Source: a virus
Strand: one strand, 5' to 3'
Virus record (IMG/VR): IMGVR_UViG_3300037875_000394
Coordinates: 1 to 22,945 of that record
Length of the DNA stretch: 22,945 nucleotides
Shown: positions 2,029 through 14,820 of the stretch, piece by piece
Layout of the letters: the number at the start of each line of letters is the position of its first letter
How positions within the stretch are numbered: position 1 is the first letter of the stretch
Notes under the pieces: model-generated
Databases searched by the model: none
The model's input: the letters and a program-made list of their open reading frames with translations, nothing else
Told to the model about the DNA's origin: nothing
Program-made: the position numbers and the translations under genes

Positions 2029-2038
2029 CTATATAATA
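2029..2038 (+). promoter_or_regulatory. Late-promoter-like motif CTATATAATA (rightward)
   Basis: CTATATAATA sits immediately before an AAGGAG ribosome site (2038-2043) and the ATG at 2050. The same ten bases recur at 3603-3612, with a one-base variant at 8818-8827, each upstream of a rightward gene. No TTGACA-like -35 lies 17 bases upstream. A phage-specific late promoter, comparable in role to the T4 TATAAATA box, is the likeliest reading. Confidence 0.5.
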
Positions 2039-2049
2039 AGGAGTTTATT

Positions 2050-3264
2050 ATGACAGATGAAACAAAAAGTGGGCCTGAGAAGCCCGAAGAATATAAAGAA
2101 ATTTTTGCAGCTAATATCCCAGATCTCCCCTTAGAGGACTTCGAACCTGATATTGAAGCTATTGTAGACGAGATCGAAGATAAAGCCCACGGTGCTTTAA
2201 CTTATGCTTTTATCGGTGCAGGGCAGGGAGGGGGAAGAATGGCAAAAGCCTTCTACGAATTAGGTTACACTAAAACACTTGCTATCAACACAGCGAAGAA
2301 TGATCTAAACTTGTTAAAGATTCCTGAGGAACATAAGTTCTATATTGATCATTATGGTGATCAGGGTGCTGGCAAGGACCAAGTTAAAGCAGCCATCGCA
2401 TTCGAAGCTAGGGAACAAGAGGTTTTCAATAAGTTGAAGAGCATCGTAGGTGAGAATGTAGATCGCATTGTTATCTGCGCTGGCATCGCTGGAGGTTCTG
2501 GTGGTGGGTCTGTCGTTCCTTTAATCAAGCTGTGTAAAAAGTATTTCACTTATGTAGGGAAAGAAGGAGATGCATCTGAGAGAATTGGAGTTATTGCTTC
2601 TCTCCCAACTACTGGTGAGTCTGCTTCTCCTGTTGTGGCTAAGAACGCTTATAACCGTATGAAGCAACTTTGTGCAATGGCTAAGGAAAAGAAGTTCTCA
2701 CCCCTTATCATTGTTGATAATCAAAAGATTAAGAAGCTTTATCCTAAGCTTACTGTAAAGGCTTTCTGGCCTACAATTAACAATACCGTTGCTGGCTTGT
2801 TCCATATATTTAATGTCCTAGCAACTCAGAACTCTGATTATACTTCCTTTGACCCACAAGACTATGACAGTGTGATGAAGTCTTCTGGTTGTATGATTAT
2901 GGGTGTCACGGCTGTTAAGGATTTTGAGAGCGAGACAGGGGTTTCTACGGCTCTCAAGGCCAATCTAGAAACAACCCTACTAGCTGAGGGCTTTGACCTC
3001 AAGACCGCTACAGCAGCCGCTGGGGTGGTCGTAGGGGGGACCAAAATCTTTGAAGAGACTGCTGGTTTGATGGACAACCTTGAACACGCCTTCTCTACTC
3101 TGGCAGCTATTACTGGCAACGCTATGGTTCACCGAGGCATCTACGAAGATCCTAGGAAGGATAAGCTAGTTGTTTATACTCTTATTGGTGGTCTTGATGC
3201 TCCCCAGAAACGCTTGGAAGATCTTACCAAGTTTATGAAGCTTGATCCTTACGGGGACGAATAA
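2050..3264 (+). CDS. Tubulin/FtsZ-superfamily GTPase
   Basis: This 404-aa protein carries the ordered motifs of the tubulin/FtsZ fold. They are the N-terminal nucleotide loop GAGQGGGR (56-63, like FtsZ GxGGGGxN), the phosphate-binding T4 loop GGSGGGS (148-154, like GGGTGTG/S), a VDN segment in the position of the FtsZ PN-rL loop, and a synergy loop SFDPQD (266-271) keeping both acidic residues of the catalytic NxDxxD. The latter is followed by SVMKSSGCMIMGV, equivalent to the FtsZ stretch after that loop. An acidic, probably flexible extension of about 50 residues precedes the fold. Members polymerise on GTP and hydrolyse it at the subunit interface, so this probably forms filaments in the infected cell. 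Known viral relatives include PhuZ and TubZ; I cannot say which it is nearest. It overlaps the next gene as TAATG. Confidence 0.88.
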   Translation: MTDETKSGPEKPEEYKEIFAANIPDLPLEDFEPDIEAIVDEIEDKAHGALTYAFIGAGQGGGRMAKAFYELGYTKTLAINTAKNDLNLLKIPEEHKFYIDHYGDQGAGKDQVKAAIAFEAREQEVFNKLKSIVGENVDRIVICAGIAGGSGGGSVVPLIKLCKKYFTYVGKEGDASERIGVIASLPTTGESASPVVAKNAYNRMKQLCAMAKEKKFSPLIIVDNQKIKKLYPKLTVKAFWPTINNTVAGLFHIFNVLATQNSDYTSFDPQDYDSVMKSSGCMIMGVTAVKDFESETGVSTALKANLETTLLAEGFDLKTATAAAGVVVGGTKIFEETAGLMDNLEHAFSTLAAITGNAMVHRGIYEDPRKDKLVVYTLIGGLDAPQKRLEDLTKFMKLDPYGDE

Positions 3265-3569
3265 TGGAAATTAATATCAATAAGGGCCAGATCATTACTA
3301 CAGTATGCCTAGCTGTGGCTGGGTGGTTTACTATGGAAACTTATTCTCACGCACAACGCCTTAGTGCTTTGGAAGAAGATAAGAGTATTCATCTGCGCCA
3401 AGATAAGGAGCTACAAGAAATTCGTAAGTGTATTCAGGACATGACCATTCTTTTCTTTCAGGAGGGGGAGGATGAACTTATTCCTTCTTACGAGAATGCT
3501 AACCCCGATGCGGGTTTCTCTGCCGCGCAAACTGATTTAAGAAATTTGCGAGAACGCAAAGGTAAGTAA
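3264..3569 (+). CDS. 101-aa single-pass membrane protein, cotranscribed with the tubulin-like GTPase
   Basis: The ATG overlaps the GTPase stop (TAATG), implying translational coupling. Residues about 9-24 (IITTVCLAVAGWFTME) form one hydrophobic span. They are followed by a charged helix likely to be a coiled coil (about 30-62, ALEEDK...QDKELQEIRK) and a polar tail. No family is recognised. Because it is coupled to the filament-forming GTPase it could be a membrane anchor or regulator for it, but small membrane-plus-coil proteins (spanin or holin accessories, for instance) are common in phages and the architecture does not decide. Confidence 0.7.
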   Translation: MEININKGQIITTVCLAVAGWFTMETYSHAQRLSALEEDKSIHLRQDKELQEIRKCIQDMTILFFQEGEDELIPSYENANPDAGFSAAQTDLRNLRERKGK

Positions 3570-3694: not shown

Positions 3695-4366
3695 ATGGAA
3701 GAGCCAGTAGACAGTCTAGTTTATTCGAAAAGGTTACGCAAACCTAAAGGAGAGATAACACTCTTTAACGATAGTGCTAAATTTATTCGGCTCCCTGTGC
3801 CTCCCATTAATTCTAGTTTAGCTACAGCAAAAGATATATTGACAGTGCAGGGAGCCACTTATTTATGCGGGGATGGTATGAAAAAAAGTGTGCGTAAGCA
3901 TGATAAAGATCCTGCATTCGCAATTAAAACATACCTAACTTTGTTTGGGATTAAGTATGATAAACAGTTTATTGACAAGGTGCTGAAGGAGAGTGCCATA
4001 ATCATTAGTACTTTAAAGAATTCATACAATAGACCTAGACCTCAACAATTAGCTCCTTATTTTGGAGTCGAGTTTGAAGTTCTTTGGAGTAGAACTAATA
4101 ATAGTCCCTCCTACCCAAGCGGGCACTCTACCCAATCTAGACTGATCGCTGAAATTTATGCAAACAAATACCCAGAACACAAACTTAATTTAATTAAAGC
4201 AGCAGAAGAATGTGGGGGAGGTAGGATAATGGCGGGATTTCATTACCCTACAGACCACAAAGCAGGAGTGTACCTTGCAAAACGACTTTTTAAATCCCTC
4301 AAAGGAACAAAAGCTGTTACTTATGATCTATCAATTGATCTCACAACTAATAAAGGAGAAAAATAA
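3695..4366 (+). CDS. PAP2-superfamily phosphatase (soluble)
   Basis: All three PAP2 / vanadium-haloperoxidase-fold motifs are visible: K-x6-RP (K108, R115, P116), PSGH (141-144, H144 the general acid) and R-x5-H-x3-D (R177, H183 the nucleophile, D187). The usual SR of the third motif is GR here. The family removes phosphate from lipid phosphates, pyrophosphates, nucleotides or other small esters. There is no signal peptide or obvious membrane helix, unlike the bacterial lipid phosphatases, so the enzyme is probably cytoplasmic and its substrate cannot be read from sequence. Length (223 aa) suits a single catalytic domain. It has a GAGG ribosome site and its stop overlaps a tiny ORF. Confidence 0.87.
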   Translation: MEEPVDSLVYSKRLRKPKGEITLFNDSAKFIRLPVPPINSSLATAKDILTVQGATYLCGDGMKKSVRKHDKDPAFAIKTYLTLFGIKYDKQFIDKVLKESAIIISTLKNSYNRPRPQQLAPYFGVEFEVLWSRTNNSPSYPSGHSTQSRLIAEIYANKYPEHKLNLIKAAEECGGGRIMAGFHYPTDHKAGVYLAKRLFKSLKGTKAVTYDLSIDLTTNKGEK

Positions 4367-4422
4367 TGCCTCTCAAACGATTCATGCTTCCCAGAGTTGC
4401 GCGTTGCAGTAACGGTTGCTGA
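4366..4422 (+). CDS. Tiny 18-codon ORF after the phosphatase
   Basis: The ATG overlaps the phosphatase stop (TAATG) and is preceded by an excellent AAAGGAG seven bases upstream, better than most full-length genes here. The product would be an 18-residue, Arg/Cys-containing peptide ending ARCSNGC. It stops one base before the 3' end of the convergent DUF1360-like gene. The strong ribosome site is the only positive evidence. Confidence 0.4.
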   Translation: MPLKRFMLPRVARCSNGC

Positions 4423-4701
4423 CTATACCCTCTCATCATGTAGGGCTAATGCCCAACTGATTGCATAAAGCAACCAACATGATGAGAGGGATAAAAAGCC
4501 ATCAAGAAGGAAGTTTCCTGTAATACTTTTCCAAGTAAGACTAAGCAAACTTCCTGTCCAGAAACCAAGACATAAAGGGCAGCAGACTAGATCACCTAAT
4601 AACGGGTGTAAGTCTGCTGCCTTTTCTCTAAAGGTCTTGAAGATCTTCCCGTGCGTAATAGCAAAGGTTATTCCAAAGCTTACTAGTATCCACTCAATCA
4701 T
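4423..4701 (-). CDS. DUF1360-like small membrane protein
   Basis: A 92-aa protein with an N-terminal hydrophobic segment (about 1-17), a central CCPLCLGFWTG motif (40-50) and C-terminal hydrophobic stretches (about 49-56 and 68-86). A CPxCxGFW-type motif followed by a membrane helix matches my recollection of the DUF1360 family of small bacterial and phage membrane proteins, whose function is unknown. It follows the glycosyltransferase with an ATGA overlap, so the two are one transcript. The last 20 codons include a perfect 14-bp inverted repeat (4428-4441 / 4477-4490), described separately. Confidence 0.62.
   Translation of the reverse strand: MIEWILVSFGITFAITHGKIFKTFREKAADLHPLLGDLVCCPLCLGFWTGSLLSLTWKSITGNFLLDGFLSLSSCWLLYAISWALALHDERV
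4428..4490. repeat. Inverted repeat predicted to form a three-way junction
   Basis: CCCTCTCATCATGT (4428-4441) and ACATGATGAGAGGG (4477-4490) are perfect 14-bp inverted repeats. The 35 bases between them hold two smaller hairpins, GGGC-TAAT-GCCC (4443-4454) and TTGC-ATAAA-GCAA (4461-4473). The whole can fold as an outer stem with two arms, on either strand. It overlaps the 3' end of the DUF1360-like gene and begins just after the tiny plus-strand ORF, at a convergent junction. No T-run follows on either strand, so it is not a classical terminator. Confidence 0.7.
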
Positions 4702-5411
4702 ATTGACAACGGAAGGGTAGTGTTAGCGATAAACGCTTTTCTATTCTTATGCCAAGAATCTCTGCCCACTAATTCCCCATTAGACATATGAATTAAGTCT
4801 ACGGGGACGGCATAATTAGTATACCCTTTTTTGTGAGCGGTACTTGTGTAGTGAAGGTCATAAAAATCCCAAGGTCCTTCGAAGTAATCAGGTTTTTGTA
4901 ATCCTACATCTACCCATACTTCTTTTCGTGCAGCTAGAAATAAACCATCTAAAACTACTACTGGTCCGTAAGGTCCGTACTCAGTATCCTCGATACGAAC
5001 TTGATCGGGTTTGTGCGTATGTGGGGGAAACTTCACTATGGTTTTATGTTTAACCATACCTCTATGATACCCCGCAGCCCAGTGGTCCTGATTCCACCAC
5101 ACGGAATCCTCACCTAGTAAAGTGGTCCCTGCTGGCCCAACGATGCCTGTTGTTTTTTTAACGCATGTGCTTAGAGCGGCAATGAACTGTGTATGATTAG
5201 AGAGGATCTGTAGATCATCATGACAGAAAATGATAATATCCTCATCCTTAGCAGTACAGAGCTTTAATCCTCTCTCATAGGCTTCAAATATAGAAGACTG
5301 CTTTGCCAAGAGTTTAACTTCCACCCCATAGCTAGATAAGGTGTTAACAAGAGCCTTAGTTATTATCGGCAATTTAACATCCCTAGTACATATAATAGCG
5401 AACATCTTCAT
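4698..5411 (-). CDS. Family-2-like (StrF-type) glycosyltransferase
   Basis: A 237-aa protein with a GT-A fold pattern. It has an N-terminal beta strand (FAIICTRD), a second block with the nucleotide-sugar/metal site region IIIFCHDDLQIL (HDD at 64-66, acting as the DxD-like motif), a VVLDGLFLAARKEVW segment and a C-terminal FEGPWDFYDLHYT segment. The last matches StrF-like family-2 transferases, where a conserved Asp near this point aids catalysis. The acceptor is unknown: host surface glycan, phage DNA or a virion protein are all possible. It is first in a leftward pair with the DUF1360-like gene. A Met at residue 3 is an alternative start; no clear ribosome site precedes either. Confidence 0.75.
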   Translation of the reverse strand: MKMFAIICTRDVKLPIITKALVNTLSSYGVEVKLLAKQSSIFEAYERGLKLCTAKDEDIIIFCHDDLQILSNHTQFIAALSTCVKKTTGIVGPAGTTLLGEDSVWWNQDHWAAGYHRGMVKHKTIVKFPPHTHKPDQVRIEDTEYGPYGPVVVLDGLFLAARKEVWVDVGLQKPDYFEGPWDFYDLHYTSTAHKKGYTNYAVPVDLIHMSNGELVGRDSWHKNRKAFIANTTLPLSI

Positions 5412-5431: not shown

Positions 5432-6958
5432 ATGGATAAATCAGAACTACTTAACGAATTTGCTAAATGTAAAGAGGACCCTGTATACTTTATTTCAAAT
5501 TATATAAAGGTCACTCATCCTGTGAGAGGTCTAGTTCCGTTTAAGCTCTACCCCTTTCAAGTAGATGTGCTAGAGGCTGTTAAAACCCATAGATTCAATG
5601 TATTGCGTAAATTCAGACAGGCAGGAGCTACTACTATTGCAGCAGGTTTATCCTTATGGACAGCCATTTTTCAAAAGCATAAACAGATTGTAATTTTATC
5701 TAAAGGAGATGCCGAGTCTACTGAGATTCTTGATAGAATCAAACTAATGTATGATGAACTTCCTACTTTTCTTAGACCTAAGATTGTGGAGGACAATAAG
5801 CACACTCTAAAACTCTCCACAGGGTCCACCATTAAATCTCGCCCATCTGGTAAGCAGTCGGGACGCTCACTAGCAGGATCACTCCTCATTATTGACGAGG
5901 CTGCTTTCATTGAAAATATTGATACTATCTGGGCTGCTGTATACCCAATTATCTCTACAGGAGGTCGTGCTTTTGTCTTATCTACCGTTAATGGTATTGG
6001 TAATTGGTATTATGATGTGTACCACAAAGCTTTAGCTGGGGAGAATTCTTTTAATGCTATTGATATTAATTGGGAATCCCACCCAGAGTATAAGCGAATG
6101 GAGGGCTTTGAAGATCTATACACAGAGTTAGAGAAGAGGGGTCTATATGTGGATCAATGGGAAACAACTACCAAAAGGAACATGCCTTTAAAGCAATGGC
6201 TACAGGAGTATGAGTGCGAGTTTCTGGGTACGGGTGAAACCTATTTAGAGGGCTATCTTCTAAGGCGATTGGTAGAAGAGGTTAATACGGATTATTGGAT
6301 CAAATACAATAACAAAATGCGGGTGTGGAAAGAGCCTACCGCAGAGCATGAATATGTTATTGGAGTAGATGTTAGCTTAGGAAGAGATAGAGATTACTCT
6401 GCTTTTCATATTTTTAATGCTTATACGGGAGAGCAAGTAGCCGAGTTTTATTCTAACAAAACCCCGATTAATGACCTTGCTCAAATTTTGTATACGGAAG
6501 CTAATCTATATAATAATGCCCATGTAATCATTGAGAGAAACACAATTGGGAATAACTTGATAGACTGGATGTTTAATGTTTTGGAATACGATAACCTTTG
6601 GATAGATGATAAAAATGATTTTGGCGTACAAATCACTACTAGAAATCGAGAGGAGTTTTTAGCAAGGATGGAGGAGTATATTAGGAACAACTACTTGAAG
6701 ATAAATTCAAAACGAACCGTAGATGAGCTTTTAACCTTTATTGTAGATGCTAATGGTAAGATTACAGCAGATGAGGGAAAACATGATGATTTAATTATGA
6801 GTCTTTCTATAGCGGTATCTTTACTACATACTTTAGCAGATCACGCGCCTTTAGAGATGGCACAGAATACAGAAGAAAAAGAGCGAAAACCCTTAGAACC
6901 CGTAAGGACTTCGAACCACGAAAGTATAGATGAGGATATAAAATGGCTGATGAGTTAA
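5432..6958 (+). CDS. Terminase large subunit (T4 gp17-like packaging ATPase-nuclease)
   Basis: Pumps DNA into the prohead and cuts the concatemer. The ATPase half shows an adenine-binding YPFQ (40-43), a Walker A region KFRQAGATT (60-68), Walker B LLIIDE (151-156, D155/E156) and a coupling motif LSTVNG. The nuclease half shows VDVS with D313, IERN with E368 and HDDLIMS with D452/D453, the three-acid RNase-H-like metal site. The Walker A lysine of GKT is absent (AGATT); a lysine eight residues before the final Thr aligns with the lambda-type deviant Walker A. Length of 508 aa is slightly under T4 gp17. It overlaps the portal gene by 16 bases, and its start follows a -10-like box by ten bases. 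Confidence 0.95.
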   Translation: MDKSELLNEFAKCKEDPVYFISNYIKVTHPVRGLVPFKLYPFQVDVLEAVKTHRFNVLRKFRQAGATTIAAGLSLWTAIFQKHKQIVILSKGDAESTEILDRIKLMYDELPTFLRPKIVEDNKHTLKLSTGSTIKSRPSGKQSGRSLAGSLLIIDEAAFIENIDTIWAAVYPIISTGGRAFVLSTVNGIGNWYYDVYHKALAGENSFNAIDINWESHPEYKRMEGFEDLYTELEKRGLYVDQWETTTKRNMPLKQWLQEYECEFLGTGETYLEGYLLRRLVEEVNTDYWIKYNNKMRVWKEPTAEHEYVIGVDVSLGRDRDYSAFHIFNAYTGEQVAEFYSNKTPINDLAQILYTEANLYNNAHVIIERNTIGNNLIDWMFNVLEYDNLWIDDKNDFGVQITTRNREEFLARMEEYIRNNYLKINSKRTVDELLTFIVDANGKITADEGKHDDLIMSLSIAVSLLHTLADHAPLEMAQNTEEKERKPLEPVRTSNHESIDEDIKWLMS

Positions 6959-8808
6959 ACAAAAATGGTAAGTTAGATGAAAGTTCTATTGGTTACACTA
7001 AGTTTGGTGCTGGTGGTCCTGATGATCGTCTTGGTCCTTATTTCTATCCCACAGGAAGATTAGGACAGTTTTTAGCTAGATTCTTCGCCACTAAAGCAGC
7101 CCCCTTTATGCACAAGCAAGGGGATGAAGGTCCCACTCCTCAAGCTCTCCTTGCTGGTGATACCGTTCAGAACTCTGATATAGTTCAACCTGATCGTCTT
7201 CCTGCCGTTGGAACCCTTAGCCGCACCTCTCTCCAACTACCTGAACTAGAGCGTACCCGTAGAGAGAGGTATAGGAAGTTCGAAGAGATGGATGACTATC
7301 CCGAGATTGGAACTGCCTTTGATATCTATGCTGATGATGCTACTCAAAAGAGTTTAAGAGGGGGTAGATGGACAATTCAAAGTAAAGAGCAGTTAGTTGT
7401 AGATGAGATTACTAAGCTCTTTGAAACCCTTAGTCTGGACAGGCATTATTGGGATATTATCCGTAATACTTGTAAGTATGGGGATTGTTTTATGGAAACT
7501 ATCATAGATATTAATAATCCAAGAAAGGGTCTCCAGAGAATAAAGGTTTTAAATCCTAATTTTATTATTAGAGTAGAAAATGAGTATGGCTACCTAACTG
7601 ATTTCCTACAAGAAATCCCTGAGGCTAACGACTGGACAGCATATGGAAGTGCCGCTGACCAGATGACTGGGACTGCTTATATTACTTTAGACAGAAACCA
7701 ACTCATCCACTTTAGACTTCGAACCTCTGACCCTATGTATTACCCTTATGGAAAGTCTATTGCAGCAACGGCTGTTCGGGTATTCCGTTCTTTGAAGCTT
7801 ATGGAAGATGCGATGTTAATCTACCGTTTGGCTAGGGCTCCTGAGCGTAGAATTTTCTATATTGATGTTGCTAATATGCCAGCCACTAAGGCTGAGATGT
7901 ATATCGAAAAGGTGAAGGAGAAATTTAAGAAAGAAAAGTATTATGATTCCAATGCAGGAACCATTGATGCTCGTTATAACCCCTTAAGTGCAGATGAAGA
8001 TTTCTTTGTTCCCACTAGAGGAAACCAAGGAACCAAGATCGAGACTCTTCCTGGAGCCCAAAATTTGGGTGAGGTAGATGATGTTCGTTACTTCCGTGAC
8101 AAGCTTCTTGCTGCTCTTAAGGTTCCTAAGGATTATATTGTGGAGAAGGACAAGTCTCCTGAGCGTAAGGCTAACCTATCCCAGCTTGATGCTAAGTTTG
8201 CTAGGGTTATTGGGCGAGTTCAACAGCAAGTTGAAATAGGCTTAGAACAAATTGCTAAGAGGCATATGGCATTGGTGGGTTATCCCGCTAGTTTAATTAA
8301 AGACTTAAAGATCATTCTTCCTGATCCTAGTGATGTTTTTACTAAGCGTAAAATGGAAATTGATGAGCAAAAAGCTAGAGTTATTCAAGCTGTTGTTGGT
8401 ACAGGGCTATTCCCTAAATCTACGATCTATAAGGAATTCTATGATATGACTGATCAAGAAATTGAACATACTTTAGAGGAACTTAAGAAAGAGAAGGAAG
8501 AGGAAGCTGCTAACGAAGCCGCTGCGATGCAAGGTCAAGAAGATATGGCTCAAAGTGGCAAAGATCAAGATATGGACCGAGAGCAACAGGGTAAGGACGC
8601 TGATGCTGGTCGAGATGAGGGTGGAAAACAGGCTGACCACGAACGACAAATGGAAGTAGAAAAGAAAAAGCCTAAAAAGGAAAGCGTAGTCTTTTTAAAT
8701 AGGTTAAAGAACCGAATTATTGCTGAGTCTGGGACTGGGCATAAAAAACTAGCCTCTCTTGAGAGGATTATCACTAGAAATGTGCAAAATCATCAAAAAA
8801 ATAGTTAA
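6943..8808 (+). CDS. Portal protein (T4 gp20-like)
   Basis: The dodecameric ring at the prohead vertex through which DNA enters and to which the tail joins. Diagnostic gp20-like stretches include RYRKFEEMDDYPEIGTAFDI (about 107-126), an AREPERR-like APERRIFYIDV segment in the middle and a wing/stem region with LLAALKVPKDYIVEKDKSPE. Its position next to the terminase supports this. At 621 aa it is about 100 residues longer than T4 gp20; the excess is a C-terminal Glu/Gln/Lys/Asp-rich disordered tail (from about 510) ending in a basic segment. An I-A-E near the end fits the loose gp21 protease rule but is weak evidence. A GAGG site precedes the ATG. Confidence 0.93.
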   Translation: MADELNKNGKLDESSIGYTKFGAGGPDDRLGPYFYPTGRLGQFLARFFATKAAPFMHKQGDEGPTPQALLAGDTVQNSDIVQPDRLPAVGTLSRTSLQLPELERTRRERYRKFEEMDDYPEIGTAFDIYADDATQKSLRGGRWTIQSKEQLVVDEITKLFETLSLDRHYWDIIRNTCKYGDCFMETIIDINNPRKGLQRIKVLNPNFIIRVENEYGYLTDFLQEIPEANDWTAYGSAADQMTGTAYITLDRNQLIHFRLRTSDPMYYPYGKSIAATAVRVFRSLKLMEDAMLIYRLARAPERRIFYIDVANMPATKAEMYIEKVKEKFKKEKYYDSNAGTIDARYNPLSADEDFFVPTRGNQGTKIETLPGAQNLGEVDDVRYFRDKLLAALKVPKDYIVEKDKSPERKANLSQLDAKFARVIGRVQQQVEIGLEQIAKRHMALVGYPASLIKDLKIILPDPSDVFTKRKMEIDEQKARVIQAVVGTGLFPKSTIYKEFYDMTDQEIEHTLEELKKEKEEEAANEAAAMQGQEDMAQSGKDQDMDREQQGKDADAGRDEGGKQADHERQMEVEKKKPKKESVVFLNRLKNRIIAESGTGHKKLASLERIITRNVQNHQKNS

Positions 8809-8817
8809 TTAGGCTCA

Positions 8818-8827
8818 CTATATAACA
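8818..8827 (+). promoter_or_regulatory. Late-promoter-like motif CTATATAACA
   Basis: Nine of ten bases match the motifs at 2029 and 3603. It lies in the 48-bp gap between the portal and the 575-aa gene, upstream of an AAGGAG ribosome site, and would start a transcript covering the 575-aa protein, collagen fibre and small membrane protein. Confidence 0.45.
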
Positions 8828-8856
8828 ATAGCCTGTAATAAACAAGGAGTTAGACA

Positions 8857-10584
8857 ATGTTCGATCATTTATTCGAAAACAGAAATACCACAGTAACAAA
8901 TTTACTTAAACTAGGCGACTGTCTTGGTCGTTCTTTAAGAGAAAATGTAGAATTATTTTCTATTGATAGTGAAAACAAGAGAGTTGCGTTCTTAACCGAG
9001 AACGGAAAAGTTCTATCAGGAGAATATAATTTAAAAGGAGATATTAATCTCACTAATCTAAGAATTCAAAGTTCTGATATCTTCGCAGATAATGAAACTT
9101 TTGATTCCTTTGTTACTGAGAAAGTCTCAACTTTTGTAGGCAAGCTCAACTCTAACGAGTATGAAACCGCTGACGATAGTTTTACTAATCTCTTATCTCT
9201 TTGGGAAAACAGACTTAAGTTTGAAAATGTTAAAAAGAGGCTTCAAGAAAAGGCTGCGGTTTTCTCCCAAGATCAAACCATTGTTGAAACTCAGGAATTT
9301 CAACGCTTTCTTGAGATGATGCCGCAGTTCCTAGACTTTCTATCTGAAAATAAACAAAATATTGAACAAGTAAAAGAAATCGAACATGCAATTAAACTTT
9401 CTAACGCCGTTTCTAAGGCATTTGATTTCCCAAAACTTTCGTATGATGCTTTACAAGAACAGGGTAGCTACAAGATCTCCAAGGGACCTAATAAAAGCGT
9501 CTACGAGTTAATCTGTAAACAAGAATTAGTACGAAAAGAACTTTTAGAATCCAAAAAGAGTTTTGAAGATGTTTGGGCGACTAACCCCAGCATTCGTAAG
9601 CTTGCTAGTCATATTTTTGAAGACTCTGAAGAAATAGTATTAGAAGCCTTAGTTGATGCTGTTGTAGAAGTTCCTTTCTTAGCTCTCACTACTAAGAAGC
9701 AACTGTTTGAATCCCTCGGAAGCTCCTTCGGTATCTCCGATGATACAGCTATTTCTGATAAGGAAATTAAAGGCTATGCTTCTAAGCTTTTTGAGATGAA
9801 GAAGCCACTAAAATCTGTAATTTTAGAACTTCTTAATACTAAGTATGGTATTAATGTTCAAAATCTTAGAGAGAGTGCCACTTTTGAAGGGTTAGCACAG
9901 ACACAAGTAGTTATTTTTGAAGCTCTTATGCGGTTAGCTCCTAAGGGAAGCATTATTAAAGAGTGTTTATCCGATTTAAGCAAGATGCTTAAGACCAAGA
10001 ACGGGGTAGAAATCATTGATGTTAATGATCTACTACAAGAATGCTTTGAAGGCTGTGATTATTCAGACTTCACCTTTGATTTTTCCCTGTCTGAGGGGAT
10101 TTCTTTTAATACCCTTCTTACAACTGAAGTAAGTACTAATGATCTTTTAGAAAAGGCCAAAGAGAAGATGCTTTTAGATAAAGATAAATATAAACCTGTT
10201 GATGACGATGAAGATAATCTTAGCCCAGAACAAAAAGATGGGAAGGCTGCCGCAGAAAAGGGCGAAGTGGACCCAGAAAACGAAACAGAGGATGAAGATG
10301 ACTCTATAAAGGCAGCTAAAAAAAGAAACCCTAAGCCAGAAAAGAAGCATGAGGAAGCTGGTGAAGCTCCTTTTCAAAAGGCAGAGACAGAAACCGCCCC
10401 TGAGGGCGGCGATGAAGAACCTCCACCCGAAGGGGAACCTTCTGCGGAAGCACCCAAGAAGGGCCTTACTAAAGATGAATTTATGGATGCTTTAAAAGAC
10501 ATGGATGAACTTTTAGCAGGTATGGCTTCCGAAGAAGAATCAGAAGAAATAGATCACGCTGAAGGTGACGAAACGGAGGCTTAA
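8857..10584 (+). CDS. 575-aa hypothetical protein with an acidic tail, possible head or virion component
   Basis: Not recognised by family. Residues 1-440 are predicted mainly helical and rich in Lys/Glu/Phe/Leu, with repeated coil-like stretches (about 120-185, 210-250). Residues about 445-540 are a strongly acidic, Pro/Glu/Asp/Lys-rich disordered region, and the last 35 residues are a short helix plus acidic end. In T4 the genes after the portal encode prohead protease, scaffold and major capsid protein; here this protein occupies that place, and its helical, charged nature would suit a scaffold or internal head protein. That is inference from position only. AAGGAG lies seven to eight bases before the ATG. 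Confidence 0.75.
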   Translation: MFDHLFENRNTTVTNLLKLGDCLGRSLRENVELFSIDSENKRVAFLTENGKVLSGEYNLKGDINLTNLRIQSSDIFADNETFDSFVTEKVSTFVGKLNSNEYETADDSFTNLLSLWENRLKFENVKKRLQEKAAVFSQDQTIVETQEFQRFLEMMPQFLDFLSENKQNIEQVKEIEHAIKLSNAVSKAFDFPKLSYDALQEQGSYKISKGPNKSVYELICKQELVRKELLESKKSFEDVWATNPSIRKLASHIFEDSEEIVLEALVDAVVEVPFLALTTKKQLFESLGSSFGISDDTAISDKEIKGYASKLFEMKKPLKSVILELLNTKYGINVQNLRESATFEGLAQTQVVIFEALMRLAPKGSIIKECLSDLSKMLKTKNGVEIIDVNDLLQECFEGCDYSDFTFDFSLSEGISFNTLLTTEVSTNDLLEKAKEKMLLDKDKYKPVDDDEDNLSPEQKDGKAAAEKGEVDPENETEDEDDSIKAAKKRNPKPEKKHEEAGEAPFQKAETETAPEGGDEEPPPEGEPSAEAPKKGLTKDEFMDALKDMDELLAGMASEEESEEIDHAEGDETEA

Positions 10585-10590
10585 CTCTAA

Positions 10591-13500
10591 ATGACAACGG
10601 GCTGCACACTAGGGTTTATCCCTCTAATTCTATCTTCTGTAGAGGGGCAATGTGAAATTGTTGAACTACCAGATGGAGAATGTCTATGTGTAGATATATG
10701 TCAGGGAAGTGTAGGGGGAACAGGACCTCAAGGGCCTCAAGGGTTTGACGGGGCGCAAGGGATTCAAGGAACTCAAGGGTCTCAAGGGTATGACGGGCCT
10801 CCAGGGCCTCAAGGGCCTACAGGGTATCAAGGGCTTCCAGGCATTAAGGGCGCTACAGGAACCCCCTTGGGTATTATTCTGGAGTTTGATGATGCGGTTG
10901 CTGGGGGAGTCTCTGGTAGTTTAATATCTTTTAATAGTGTTGATTCGACTGGTGTTAGTGAAGTTTGGGTAGATAATTTTAGTAAGGCTGGTCAAGATCT
11001 TACTAATTGGATTAATTCATGGTATACAGGGTGGCCTGGACCTACAGGGTATGGCCCTTATGGGGTATTAACTGTACAGTCTACTCTTAATTCTGATGCT
11101 TTATTTAACTTTAATATAACTGGTATAACATATGTAAATGCTGGTGGTCTTACTTATTTTAAATTAGCTTGTGATGCTCTATATTATCCTGGGGCTGAAA
11201 TTGTCAACTTTTTAACTGATGGTGATGATGTAGCTATAACTTTTTCAAAAGATGGGCCTCCAGGGCCTCAAGGGTTTGACGGGGCGCAAGGGATTCAAGG
11301 AACTCAAGGGTCTCAAGGGCATCGAGGGGATCCAGGGTTTCAAGGGGCTCAAGGGATTCAAGGGCATCAAGGGTATCAAGGGTATGACGGGGATGTAGGG
11401 CCTCAAGGGCCTACAGGGTTTGACGGGGCTGAGGGCATTAAGGGTTCTACAGGGATTCCCTTGGGTACTATTATGGATTATGTAGAGTCTGCTACTGGGG
11501 GAACTGCTGATGGTAAGTTGTCTTTTAATAATATAGACTCGGCTGATATTTCAGAAGTTTGGTTAGATGATGAAAGTAAATATAATCAACCTCTTAGGGA
11601 TTGGATTGATTCCTGGTATTCAGGGTTTCCAGGGGCTACAGGGTATGGCCCTTATGGGGTATTAAATGTACACTCTACTGAGGCTGCTGATGTTTTATTT
11701 AGCTTTAAGATAACTGATATATTTGACAGGACAACCTACTATAGATTAGGGTGTGAGCCTCTGTCTTATCCTGGTAATACTGTCACAGACTTTTTAACTA
11801 ATGATGATGATGTAGCTATAACTTTTTCAAGATATGGGCCTCCAGGGCCTCAAGGGTTTCAAGGGTTTGACGGGGCTCAAGGGATTCAAGGGCATCAAGG
11901 GCCTGGGGGGCCTAAAGGGTTTCAAGGGTATGACGGGCCTATTGGGACTATTGGGCCTACTGGGCCTGAGGGGCCTGAGGGGCCTCAAGGCCCTATAGGG
12001 TATGCTGGGGCTGTTGGGCCTATAGGGCCTATAGGGTATTCTGGGCCTGAGGGGCCTGATGGGCCTCCAGGGCCTCAAGGGGTTACAGGGCCTCAAGGGC
12101 ATCAAGGGTATCAAGGAACTCAAGGTTCTCAAGGGTCTCAAGGGGAGCAAGGGTTTCAAGGGTATCAAGGGTATCAAGGGAATCAAGGGATTCAAGGGCA
12201 TGAAGGGCCTATAGGGCCTGACGGGATTAGAGGGTTTCAAGGGGCTCAAGGGATTATGGGGCATGACGGGGCTGAGGGGCCTGAGGGGCCTGAGGGGCCT
12301 CAAGGCCCTATAGGGTATGCTGGGGCTGTTGGGCCTATAGGGCCTCAAGGGTATGACGGGACTGATGGGCCTGATGGGCCTCCAGGGCCTCAAGGGGTTA
12401 CAGGGCCTCAAGGGCATCAAGGGCATCAAGGGTATCAAGGAACTCAAGGTTCTCAAGGGGAGCAAGGGTCTCAAGGGTTTCAAGGGTATCAAGGGAATCA
12501 AGGGATTCAAGGGGAGAGAGGGTTTCCCTTGGGTATCATTATGGATTTTGATGGAGCGACTGGTGGGGGAGTTGCTAGTGGTAAGTTGTCTTTTGATGAG
12601 GTGCGAGCAGATGACATTTCAGAAGTTTGGTTAGATGATGAAAGTAAGGCTGGTCAAAGTCTTATTCTTTGGATTAATTCATGGTATACAGGGTTTCCAG
12701 GGGCTACAGGGTCCAACTATGGGGTATTAAATGTACGATCTACTAAGGCTGCTGATACTGTATTTAGTTTTAATATAACTGGTATAACATTTGTAAATGC
12801 CCTTACTACTTATTATAAATTAGAGTGTAATGCTCTATATTTTCCTGGGGAGGTTGTTGCCGACTTTTTATCTGATGGTGATGATGCAGCTATTTCTTTT
12901 ACAAGATATGGGCCTCCAGGGTCTCAAGGGTTTCAAGGGTTTCAAGGGTTTGACGGGGCTCAAGGGATTCAAGGGCATCAAGGGCCTGGGGGGCCTAAAG
13001 GGTTTCAAGGGTATGACGGGCCTATTGGGACTATTGGGCCTACTGGGCCTACTGGGCCTGAGGGGCCTGAGGGGCCTCAAGGCCCTATAGGGTATGCTGG
13101 GGCTGTTGGGCCTATAGGGCCTCAAGGGTATGACGGGACTGATGGGCCTGATGGGCCTCCAGGGCCTCAAGGGGTTACAGGGCCTCAAGGGTATCAAGGA
13201 ACTCAAGGTTCTCAAGGGTCTCAAGGGTCTCAAGGGGAGCAAGGGTTTCAAGGGTATCAAGGGTATCAAGGGATTCAAGGGCATGAAGGGGAGAAAGGAT
13301 CTCCCTTGGGTATCATTATGACTTTTGATGAAGCGGTTAATGGGGGAACTGCTGATGGTAAGTTGTCTTTTAATGATGAACACACTACTCCAATTTCAGA
13401 AGTTTGGATAGATTCTCATAGTAAGAGTCTACAACCTCTTACTACTTGGATTCAGTCATGGTATTCAGGGTATCCAGGGGCTACAGGGCAAGGCCCCTAT

Positions 13501-14820
13501 GGGGTATTAAGTGTACAATCTACTGTTACTTCTAATACTTTATATACCTTTAAGGTAACTGGTATAAATGCCCTTACTTCTTATTATGTGATAGATTGTG
13601 ACCCTGTATATTTTCCTGGGGAGGTTGTTGCCGACTTTTTATCTGATGGTGATGATGTAGCTATTTCTTTTACAAGATATGGGCCTCCAGGAGGCCCTCA
13701 AGGGGCTCAAGGGTCTCAAGGGCAAGGGGCTCAAGGGGCTCAAGGGACTGATGGGCCTCAAGGGGCTCAAGGGTTTCAAGGGGCTCAAGGGCAAGGGGCT
13801 CAAGGGACTGATGGGCCTCCTGGACCTGCTGGGGCTACAGGTTTAACTGCTTTAGCTATCGAAGCGCGGGACGCGCTGTGGGCGAGAAATACGACTACGG
13901 GGGGTATGATCAGTGAAACTGGTTGTTATCCCTTCTTGGGATCTTTAAATAATCCAAACTCGGGTGGGGGTGGAACGGGGACTGATGAGGATGGAAATGC
14001 CGATGGATATGGATTAAGCTTCTTTGAGGGTGTTACTTGGAGTTATGGGGGTGACGGGGGAGAGGCGGGGACTGGTGCATGGAAACCTACCCCTCCAATC
14101 TTCTCCCGCTGGAACGATACAACCGCCATTATGAATGCGGCGTGGCGGGAGATGAGTTGGGAAGACGGGGAAATGGGGGCTTCACTAATTACCACACTTG
14201 AAAGTGATGTGACCATTAAGGCTACAGGATTAGGCTCTATTCAGGCTGATCAAATTTCCCTAGCATCGGGAGGGTATACTGCTGTTGCGAATGTTCCCCT
14301 TAGTGAGTGGTCTGCTTCTGATCTTGATATAACTGGAAAGTACCTTACTACTACCAATCTATTGGTAAAAGCAGACTCTCTTACAGTAGGAGATGCTTGT
14401 CCTGTTCCTCTTCCGTTCTGCTATATGGCCCTAAGTGCGGCTGATGTAGCATCCTCTGATGAGAAGGCATTAGGCTACTCAAATGTTCCTACTACAATAG
14501 AGTCTAATATTAGTGACTTTGTATGGGATGATACTGCTAAGAATTGGATAGTAAAAATAGCAGGTACTTATCGAGTCATAGGGGCAGTAATATTAGAGGG
14601 AGGATCCTCTTTAGTAAATCTAAATGTTAATCTAGAGGGGGTTTCCATTCTAACTGGAGCCCCTAGAGTCCACTCCTCTGTTGATCCTCTAGAACACACA
14701 ATTATGGCTGTATTCACAGCCGCAGCAGATGATGTGGTAAATATTACCTATGAAGCTACTGCTGCTTCTACCGTAAAAGCTATTATAGGCTCTACCTTCT
14801 TCATGGAAAGATTAAAATAA
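10591..14820 (+). CDS. 1409-aa collagen-like fibre protein with four repeated globular modules
   Basis: A probable trimeric virion fibre or adhesion protein. A short N-terminus with five cysteines (residues 5, 21, 31, 33, 37) leads into five Gly-X-Y segments: about 42-91, 222-289, 416-644, 774-903 and 1031-1085. Between them lie four homologous non-collagen modules of about 125-130 aa (92-221, 290-415, 646-773, 905-1030), each starting PLG-I and ending in a VAIxF block. A unique Gly-rich region follows. The last about 140 residues look like a C1q/TNF-type beta jelly roll ending STFFMERLK, typical of a collagen trimerisation head. Many triplets carry Gln in the Y position (GYQ, GTQ, GSQ). A GGAGG site lies upstream. 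Function in host contact is inferred. Confidence 0.9.
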   Translation: MTTGCTLGFIPLILSSVEGQCEIVELPDGECLCVDICQGSVGGTGPQGPQGFDGAQGIQGTQGSQGYDGPPGPQGPTGYQGLPGIKGATGTPLGIILEFDDAVAGGVSGSLISFNSVDSTGVSEVWVDNFSKAGQDLTNWINSWYTGWPGPTGYGPYGVLTVQSTLNSDALFNFNITGITYVNAGGLTYFKLACDALYYPGAEIVNFLTDGDDVAITFSKDGPPGPQGFDGAQGIQGTQGSQGHRGDPGFQGAQGIQGHQGYQGYDGDVGPQGPTGFDGAEGIKGSTGIPLGTIMDYVESATGGTADGKLSFNNIDSADISEVWLDDESKYNQPLRDWIDSWYSGFPGATGYGPYGVLNVHSTEAADVLFSFKITDIFDRTTYYRLGCEPLSYPGNTVTDFLTNDDDVAITFSRYGPPGPQGFQGFDGAQGIQGHQGPGGPKGFQGYDGPIGTIGPTGPEGPEGPQGPIGYAGAVGPIGPIGYSGPEGPDGPPGPQGVTGPQGHQGYQGTQGSQGSQGEQGFQGYQGYQGNQGIQGHEGPIGPDGIRGFQGAQGIMGHDGAEGPEGPEGPQGPIGYAGAVGPIGPQGYDGTDGPDGPPGPQGVTGPQGHQGHQGYQGTQGSQGEQGSQGFQGYQGNQGIQGERGFPLGIIMDFDGATGGGVASGKLSFDEVRADDISEVWLDDESKAGQSLILWINSWYTGFPGATGSNYGVLNVRSTKAADTVFSFNITGITFVNALTTYYKLECNALYFPGEVVADFLSDGDDAAISFTRYGPPGSQGFQGFQGFDGAQGIQGHQGPGGPKGFQGYDGPIGTIGPTGPTGPEGPEGPQGPIGYAGAVGPIGPQGYDGTDGPDGPPGPQGVTGPQGYQGTQGSQGSQGSQGEQGFQGYQGYQGIQGHEGEKGSPLGIIMTFDEAVNGGTADGKLSFNDEHTTPISEVWIDSHSKSLQPLTTWIQSWYSGYPGATGQGPYGVLSVQSTVTSNTLYTFKVTGINALTSYYVIDCDPVYFPGEVVADFLSDGDDVAISFTRYGPPGGPQGAQGSQGQGAQGAQGTDGPQGAQGFQGAQGQGAQGTDGPPGPAGATGLTALAIEARDALWARNTTTGGMISETGCYPFLGSLNNPNSGGGGTGTDEDGNADGYGLSFFEGVTWSYGGDGGEAGTGAWKPTPPIFSRWNDTTAIMNAAWREMSWEDGEMGASLITTLESDVTIKATGLGSIQADQISLASGGYTAVANVPLSEWSASDLDITGKYLTTTNLLVKADSLTVGDACPVPLPFCYMALSAADVASSDEKALGYSNVPTTIESNISDFVWDDTAKNWIVKIAGTYRVIGAVILEGGSSLVNLNVNLEGVSILTGAPRVHSSVDPLEHTIMAVFTAAADDVVNITYEATAASTVKAIIGSTFFMERLK
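10864..13680 (+). repeat. Four copies of a ~380-bp module alternating with collagen triplet DNA
   Basis: Related module copies lie at 10864-11253, 11458-11835, 12526-12909 and 13303-13680. Each begins CCCTTGGGTA, contains a SEVW-(V/L/I)-D block and a GVL-V-ST block, and ends with the codons for VAI(T/S)F just before GGGCCTCCAGG. They diverge at perhaps a third to a half of residues, so the duplications are old, while the flanking collagen DNA is nearly identical between copies. Confidence 0.85.
11836..12525 (+). repeat. Long collagen-coding 9-bp repeat tract with internal duplications
   Basis: About 76 consecutive Gly-X-Y triplets encoded by variants of GGG-NNN-CAA and GGG-CCT-NNN. A block of about 50 bp starting GGCCTCAAGGCCCTATAGGG occurs here at 11981 and about 12297, and again at about 13070 in the next collagen segment, showing recent duplication or recombination within the gene. 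Confidence 0.85.

Follow-up and report, generated by a model that had tools for sequence, protein, structure and literature searches.

The tubulin gene and its surroundings

The DNA analysed here (the window) is an IMG/VR fragment of 22,945 bases, taken over its whole length, from an uncultured marine virus that infects bacteria. An open reading frame on its plus strand (2050..3264), recognised by profile match and predicted fold, encodes a tubulin-superfamily GTPase of 404 amino acids. A Shine–Dalgarno sequence AAGGAG can be read just upstream at 2038..2043 (+). In the sequence and the alignments, the T1 nucleotide-binding loop GAGQGGGR corresponds to residues 56–63 (2215..2238, +) and the T4 tubulin signature loop GGSGGGS to residues 148–154 (2491..2511, +), and they are followed by the T7 synergy loop SFDPQD at residues 266–271 (2845..2862, +). 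Two further elements emerged from the alignments: the family signature HRGIYED in the C-terminal domain (residues 361–367; 3130..3150, +) and a conserved N-terminal linear motif, IPDLPLED (residues 23–30; 2116..2139, +), which according to pLDDT lies within a disordered acidic tail.

The start of the next gene, a 101-aa ORF whose product is weakly hydrophobic at its N-terminus (3264..3569, +), overlaps the tubulin stop; this ORF also adjoins the tubulin in L008 (78%) and not in other relatives. The tubulin gene lies 2.2 kb upstream of, and on the same strand as, the genes for a T4-type large terminase (TerL, 5432..6958, +) and a T4-type portal protein gp20 (6943..8808, +), both identified by profile match. 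The T4-type phage context proposed in the initial annotation was therefore correct. Besides TerL and gp20, the window contains a T4-type baseplate protein, a UvsW-like helicase, a DnaG-type primase and a collagen-repeat fibre as T4-type myovirus markers, while its TerL and portal stay below 40% identity to their counterparts in every deposited phage among the matches listed. The T4 late promoter TATAAATA was not found upstream of the tubulin gene, nor was it enriched genome-wide. A tRNA-based host inference gave no result, since the window clade has no tRNAs.

Other genes of the window deserve mention in their own right. The tail fibre (10591-14820) has 1,409 amino acids with nine collagen triple-helix stretches. 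Between tubulin and terminase (3695-5411) lie genes for a PAP2 phosphatase, a DUF1360 membrane protein and a glycosyltransferase-like protein, which are retained in nearly the whole window clade. A 197-aa ORF with no assigned function (1331-1924 in the window, 12264-12878 in L006) is found upstream and divergent from the tubulin in the window and L009, and downstream and co-directional in L006 and L008. This strand switch suggests that the DNA around the tubulin was inverted locally or shuffled.

Sequence, fold and comparison with known tubulins

The window protein matched the Pfam families TubZ-like_C (PF22453, 1.4e-9) and Tubulin (PF00091, 4.6e-9), both above the cut-offs, and an unnamed family only in PHROGs. 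Among solved relatives, RepX/TubZ (4ei7) was the best match at 1.1e-11, with CetZ and FtsZ next. AlphaFold2, which is confident when the alignment includes Phycisphaerae homologues, gave a tubulin fold with a pLDDT of 86 and a pTM of 0.85. A Foldseek search with this model returned TubZ as best match (E 5.9e-23, TM 0.71-0.73, about 20% identity), followed by CetZ and FtsZ. The tubulin/FtsZ GTPase identity put forward initially was confirmed on both counts, since the best profile families are of tubulin type and not of another P-loop or Rossmann family, and structure prediction yields the tubulin fold.

In an alignment of 27 relatives, down to 41% identity, G58, G61, G62, G148, G151, G153, D268 and D271 are invariant, as are P24, H361, R362 and G363, and L26 and E29 are nearly so. 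The three loops are as the initial annotation described them, both acidic residues of the synergy loop are retained, and the acidic extension of some 50 residues at the N-terminus was borne out, residues 1–36 being predicted as disordered (pLDDT <50). Thus, the product of the ORF is a true member of the tubulin superfamily whose GTP pocket and catalytic loop are intact: it has the GTPase-domain profile, the tubulin fold, glycine-rich T1 and T4 loops and the T7 acidic residues, and its matches by profile and fold are far above chance. It also belongs to a narrower family, defined by the N-terminal [IL]PxLxxE, YTxFDxxDY and HRGI[YF]ED together with alignment over the full length. The N-terminal motif reads IPTLDIED in other phages (IPTLDIEDYDP in its longer form) and IPTLDLEQ in Phycisphaerae (longer form IPTLDLEQYEP).

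With TubZ of Bacillus plasmids (2xka, 4ei7), the window protein shares the tubulin fold, the TubZ-like_C domain and an intact T7 loop, and its predicted model resembles TubZ more closely than FtsZ or PhuZ. However, identity to TubZ is only about 20%, no TubR or tubC is adjacent, the phage context is of a virulent, T4-like type, and the conserved linear motif is N-terminal rather than C-terminal as in TubZ. PhuZ of the phiKZ-like nucleus-forming jumbo phages is likewise phage-encoded, with a probable role in DNA and capsid positioning in common, but it gives a TM of about 0.5 and 12% identity, and neither sequence nor structure groups the window protein with it. FtsZ has a similar GTPase domain and the T7 aspartates, whereas the window protein shows no FtsZ_C Pfam match, is about 20% identical, and ends just after the C-terminal domain, without the C-terminal conserved peptide. 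After TubZ, CetZ of haloarchaea is one of the nearest solved structures (TM 0.68-0.69), but it is also about 20% identical, archaeal and functions in cell shape. The window tubulin is therefore neither FtsZ, nor PhuZ, nor part of a TubRZC system. In the BFVD structure library, the closest viral protein was A0A6J5RW92 of an uncultured Caudovirales phage (E 9.1e-35, 25% identity), automatically annotated as 'FtsZ Cell division GTPase', and PhuZ was far more distant.

Distribution, constraint and mobility among phages

A search of 50,697 deposited phage genomes with the window tubulin gave no match at E 0.01, and no close homologue was found in cultured phages, where Bacillus phage G was the only hit, at 19%. 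In IMG/VR, the window query retrieved 12 close loci at 86-100% identity, alignment A1 retrieved 66 loci down to 59%, and alignment A2 retrieved 172 relatives. A Phycisphaerae-type query gave 74 loci (23-53% identical to that query), on contigs partly overlapping the earlier sets. Each of 16 large contigs carries a single tubulin copy. Since the T4-type portal was present in 11 of the 14 long tubulin-bearing contigs tested, which were drawn from all main branches, the tubulin probably characterises T4-type myoviruses, often large ones, and not phiKZ-like phages. It constitutes a distinct and environmentally common family of the gp20-portal myoviruses. No paper on a tubulin family of T4-type phages and Phycisphaerae was found in a literature search.

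Most of the first 66 loci have the order TUB-...-TER-POR, and in most loci of the major clade it is F10-F3-TUB-F6-F5-F4-TER-POR. The T4-type portal is found 0.8-3.3 kb downstream of the tubulin in the deep lineages L260-262, L265, L273, L286, L290 and L297, and at least 12 kb away in L251, L306, L309 and L311, so the link to packaging genes is not universal across lineages. Three loci showed peculiarities. In L297, a 1,028-aa ORF with an HNH endonuclease-containing intein (6135-9218) takes the place of TerL between tubulin and portal. The tubulin of L052 (826-1962) is split into two ORFs of 243 and 123 amino acids and may be broken or mis-assembled. In G012, a small ORF after the tubulin (L093 16169-16537) probably encodes a signal peptide and contains a haem-like CxxCH motif.

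Of the proteins encoded in its neighbourhood, the tubulin evolves most slowly. It averages 66% identity where TerL averages 35% and the portal 31%, and it is 92% identical where TerL is 73%. With a dN/dS of about 0.02-0.07, it is under very strong purifying selection, as would be expected for a polymer with many contacts. In addition, pS in two window-clade pairs is lower for tubulin (0.50-0.54) than for TerL (0.78-0.79), and G008 has a tubulin 87% identical to that of the window with no other gene in common. The lower pS and this isolated sharing point to gene exchange between related phages combined with purifying selection.

Sister phages L341-L343 have the order F10-F3-F6-F5-F4-TER-POR without tubulin, a precise empty site at which F3 and F6 overlap in L341. 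Empty sites also occur in L419 and L427 of the window clade, where the tubulin is patchy. Since these sisters keep the same flanking genes, the tubulin behaves as an autonomous single gene, inserted near the packaging genes in two lineages, and is accessory. Among loci with enough upstream sequence and a TerL identity of at least 76%, it was present in 10 of the 10 examined, which argues that it is useful to these major-subclade phages; at a TerL identity of 74% or less it was found in none of 30.

Chromosomal relatives, possible transfer and possible function

Scanning GTDB genomes with A2 gave seven loci, all in Planctomycetota MAGs (mostly Phycisphaerae) and 40-50% identical, whereas the narrower alignment A1 had found no cellular homologue in genome contigs. 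Homologues were present in 13 of 298 sampled genomes of the class Phycisphaerae and in 6 of 392 of the phylum Planctomycetota, two of the six being weak, distant matches. These genes are chromosomal, as their housekeeping neighbours (pheT, gapA/pgk/rpe, lepB) indicate, and by sequence search they are the only close cellular homologues found. They resemble the window tubulin over the full length (41-50%), with the IPTLDLEQYEP motif, YTSFDPxDY and HRGIYED. They differ in being chromosomal, often tandem or N-terminally extended, and in having GQCGG where the phages have GQGGG. All PF00091 matches in 18 carrier genomes (incomplete MAGs) fall at these loci, with no FtsZ or other tubulin detected, in agreement with the ftsZ loss reported in Phycisphaerae (PMC12283558, PMC5147048). 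A survey of FtsZ/tubulin evolution (PMC9871819) mentions neither Phycisphaerae nor phages.

Some Phycisphaerae genomes have a tandem tubulin pair. The second copy (L109 9239-11032, L110 6708-8285) has degenerate GTPase loops and a C-terminal AAA_lid_14-like fusion, a region which resembles the DNA-binding ends of sigma54-activator/Fis type.

A narrow tree left the direction of transfer open, and planctomycete monophyly was not rejected (AU p 0.11). It had suggested a host-to-phage capture, a reading that was reversed when more diverse viral members were included: once another 41 viral sequences had been added, the Phycisphaerae proteins grouped as a single clade (100/99) with viral lineages all around it. 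The same nesting is seen on a tree rooted with E. coli FtsZ and two distant planctomycete tubulins (40-row clade 98/97), which has long outgroup branches and draws on genome scans that covered close cellular relatives only. In this rooted tree the phiKZ PhuZ row, with a branch of 9.1, joins an unrelated long row. An all-viral grouping apart from Phycisphaerae was rejected at p-AU 0.020, by a test picked after the tree had been seen. Since the Phycisphaerae clade sits inside the viral radiation, the trees suggest phage-to-bacterium transfer, which is favoured and not established. The wider scenario, in which the tubulin family of T4 phages is old and an FtsZ-less Phycisphaerae lineage domesticated such a phage tubulin as its sole tubulin, is put forward tentatively and with more doubt than belief.

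For the phages themselves, the reading we prefer, with belief and doubt about balanced, is that of a T4-type phage tubulin family, nearest to TubZ and inserted in the late region, whose GTP-driven late filaments would organise the infected cell. The tubulin would form GTP-dependent filaments late in infection, and these may centre replicating or packaging DNA, or move procapsids to the DNA. PhuZ centres the phage nucleus and moves capsids (PMC13282480), and by analogy late placement of DNA or capsids for packaging is plausible here. The protein would then work like PhuZ, but non-phiKZ phages would have recruited their tubulin separately. Its patchy presence and its distance from the portal in some lineages count against this reading. 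A cargo or an anchor probably docks on the disordered acidic peptide [I/L]PxLxxE at the N-terminus; no cargo or motor partner of the window tubulin was identified.

Alternatively, the phage protein could copolymerise with, or displace, a chromosomal homologue in FtsZ-less Phycisphaerae-like hosts, and could reach host partners through the shared N-terminal motif. This we consider unlikely. The sole close cellular homologues found do carry the same motif, and their genomes have no other PF00091 protein. However, an identity of 41-50% is low for copolymerisation, the homologue occurs in only a small fraction of the class, and no close phage copy of the tubulin was found in any GTDB genome. Moreover, G012 and G018 encode their own tmRNAs (L093 12985-13309, L098 849-1179), whose tags, ANTDTYSEYALAA and ANTNTYVDYALAA, show no resemblance to the Phycisphaerae tags examined.

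A block of host division through FtsZ or a host division scaffold is decidedly improbable. Phage proteins that block division by way of FtsZ exist, such as lambda Kil (PMC3961180), but the window protein is not a small inhibitor: it is a full GTPase, and purifying selection on it is strong. The initial annotation had considered interference with host division; for FtsZ this is unsupported, since no FtsZ was found in the bacteria that hold the closest cellular relatives.

A role in lysis or envelope remodelling seems very improbable, even though the major-clade tubulin is flanked by the small membrane proteins F3 and F6 (transmembrane helices predicted in 50/55 and 48/48, respectively) and, in G012 and G018, the gene comes after one for an SLT lytic transglycosylase. 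L341-L343 retain the same neighbours in the same order without tubulin, so F3 and F6 are not necessary partners, and tubulin neighbours vary by lineage. Spanin or holin identities considered for F3, F6 and F10 had no profile support.

Finally, a TubRZC-type partition tubulin segregating an extrachromosomal prophage is hardly credible: TubZ is the nearest solved fold and, according to work cited in PMC8597652, partitions plasmids and a Clostridium prophage, but domain searches of the neighbouring genes found no TubR-like HTH gene, no direct repeats or iterons were found upstream of the tubulin, and no lysogeny gene was seen in the window alongside its T4-type structural genes.

The large phage family, its Phycisphaerae kin and its single-gene insertion go beyond what the sequence of the window alone showed. 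The phage tubulins characterised so far are mostly those of nucleus-forming phiKZ-like phages and of a small number of partition systems. The family described here is separate from these, common in the environment and located in T4-type myoviruses. Its nearest cellular kin are in FtsZ-less planctomycetes. Two questions are raised, namely whether T4-type phages build a skeleton of tubulin for packaging and whether bacteria that lack FtsZ make use of a tubulin related to that of phages. If true, the transfer reading would mean that FtsZ-less bacteria domesticated a cytoskeletal protein of viral origin.
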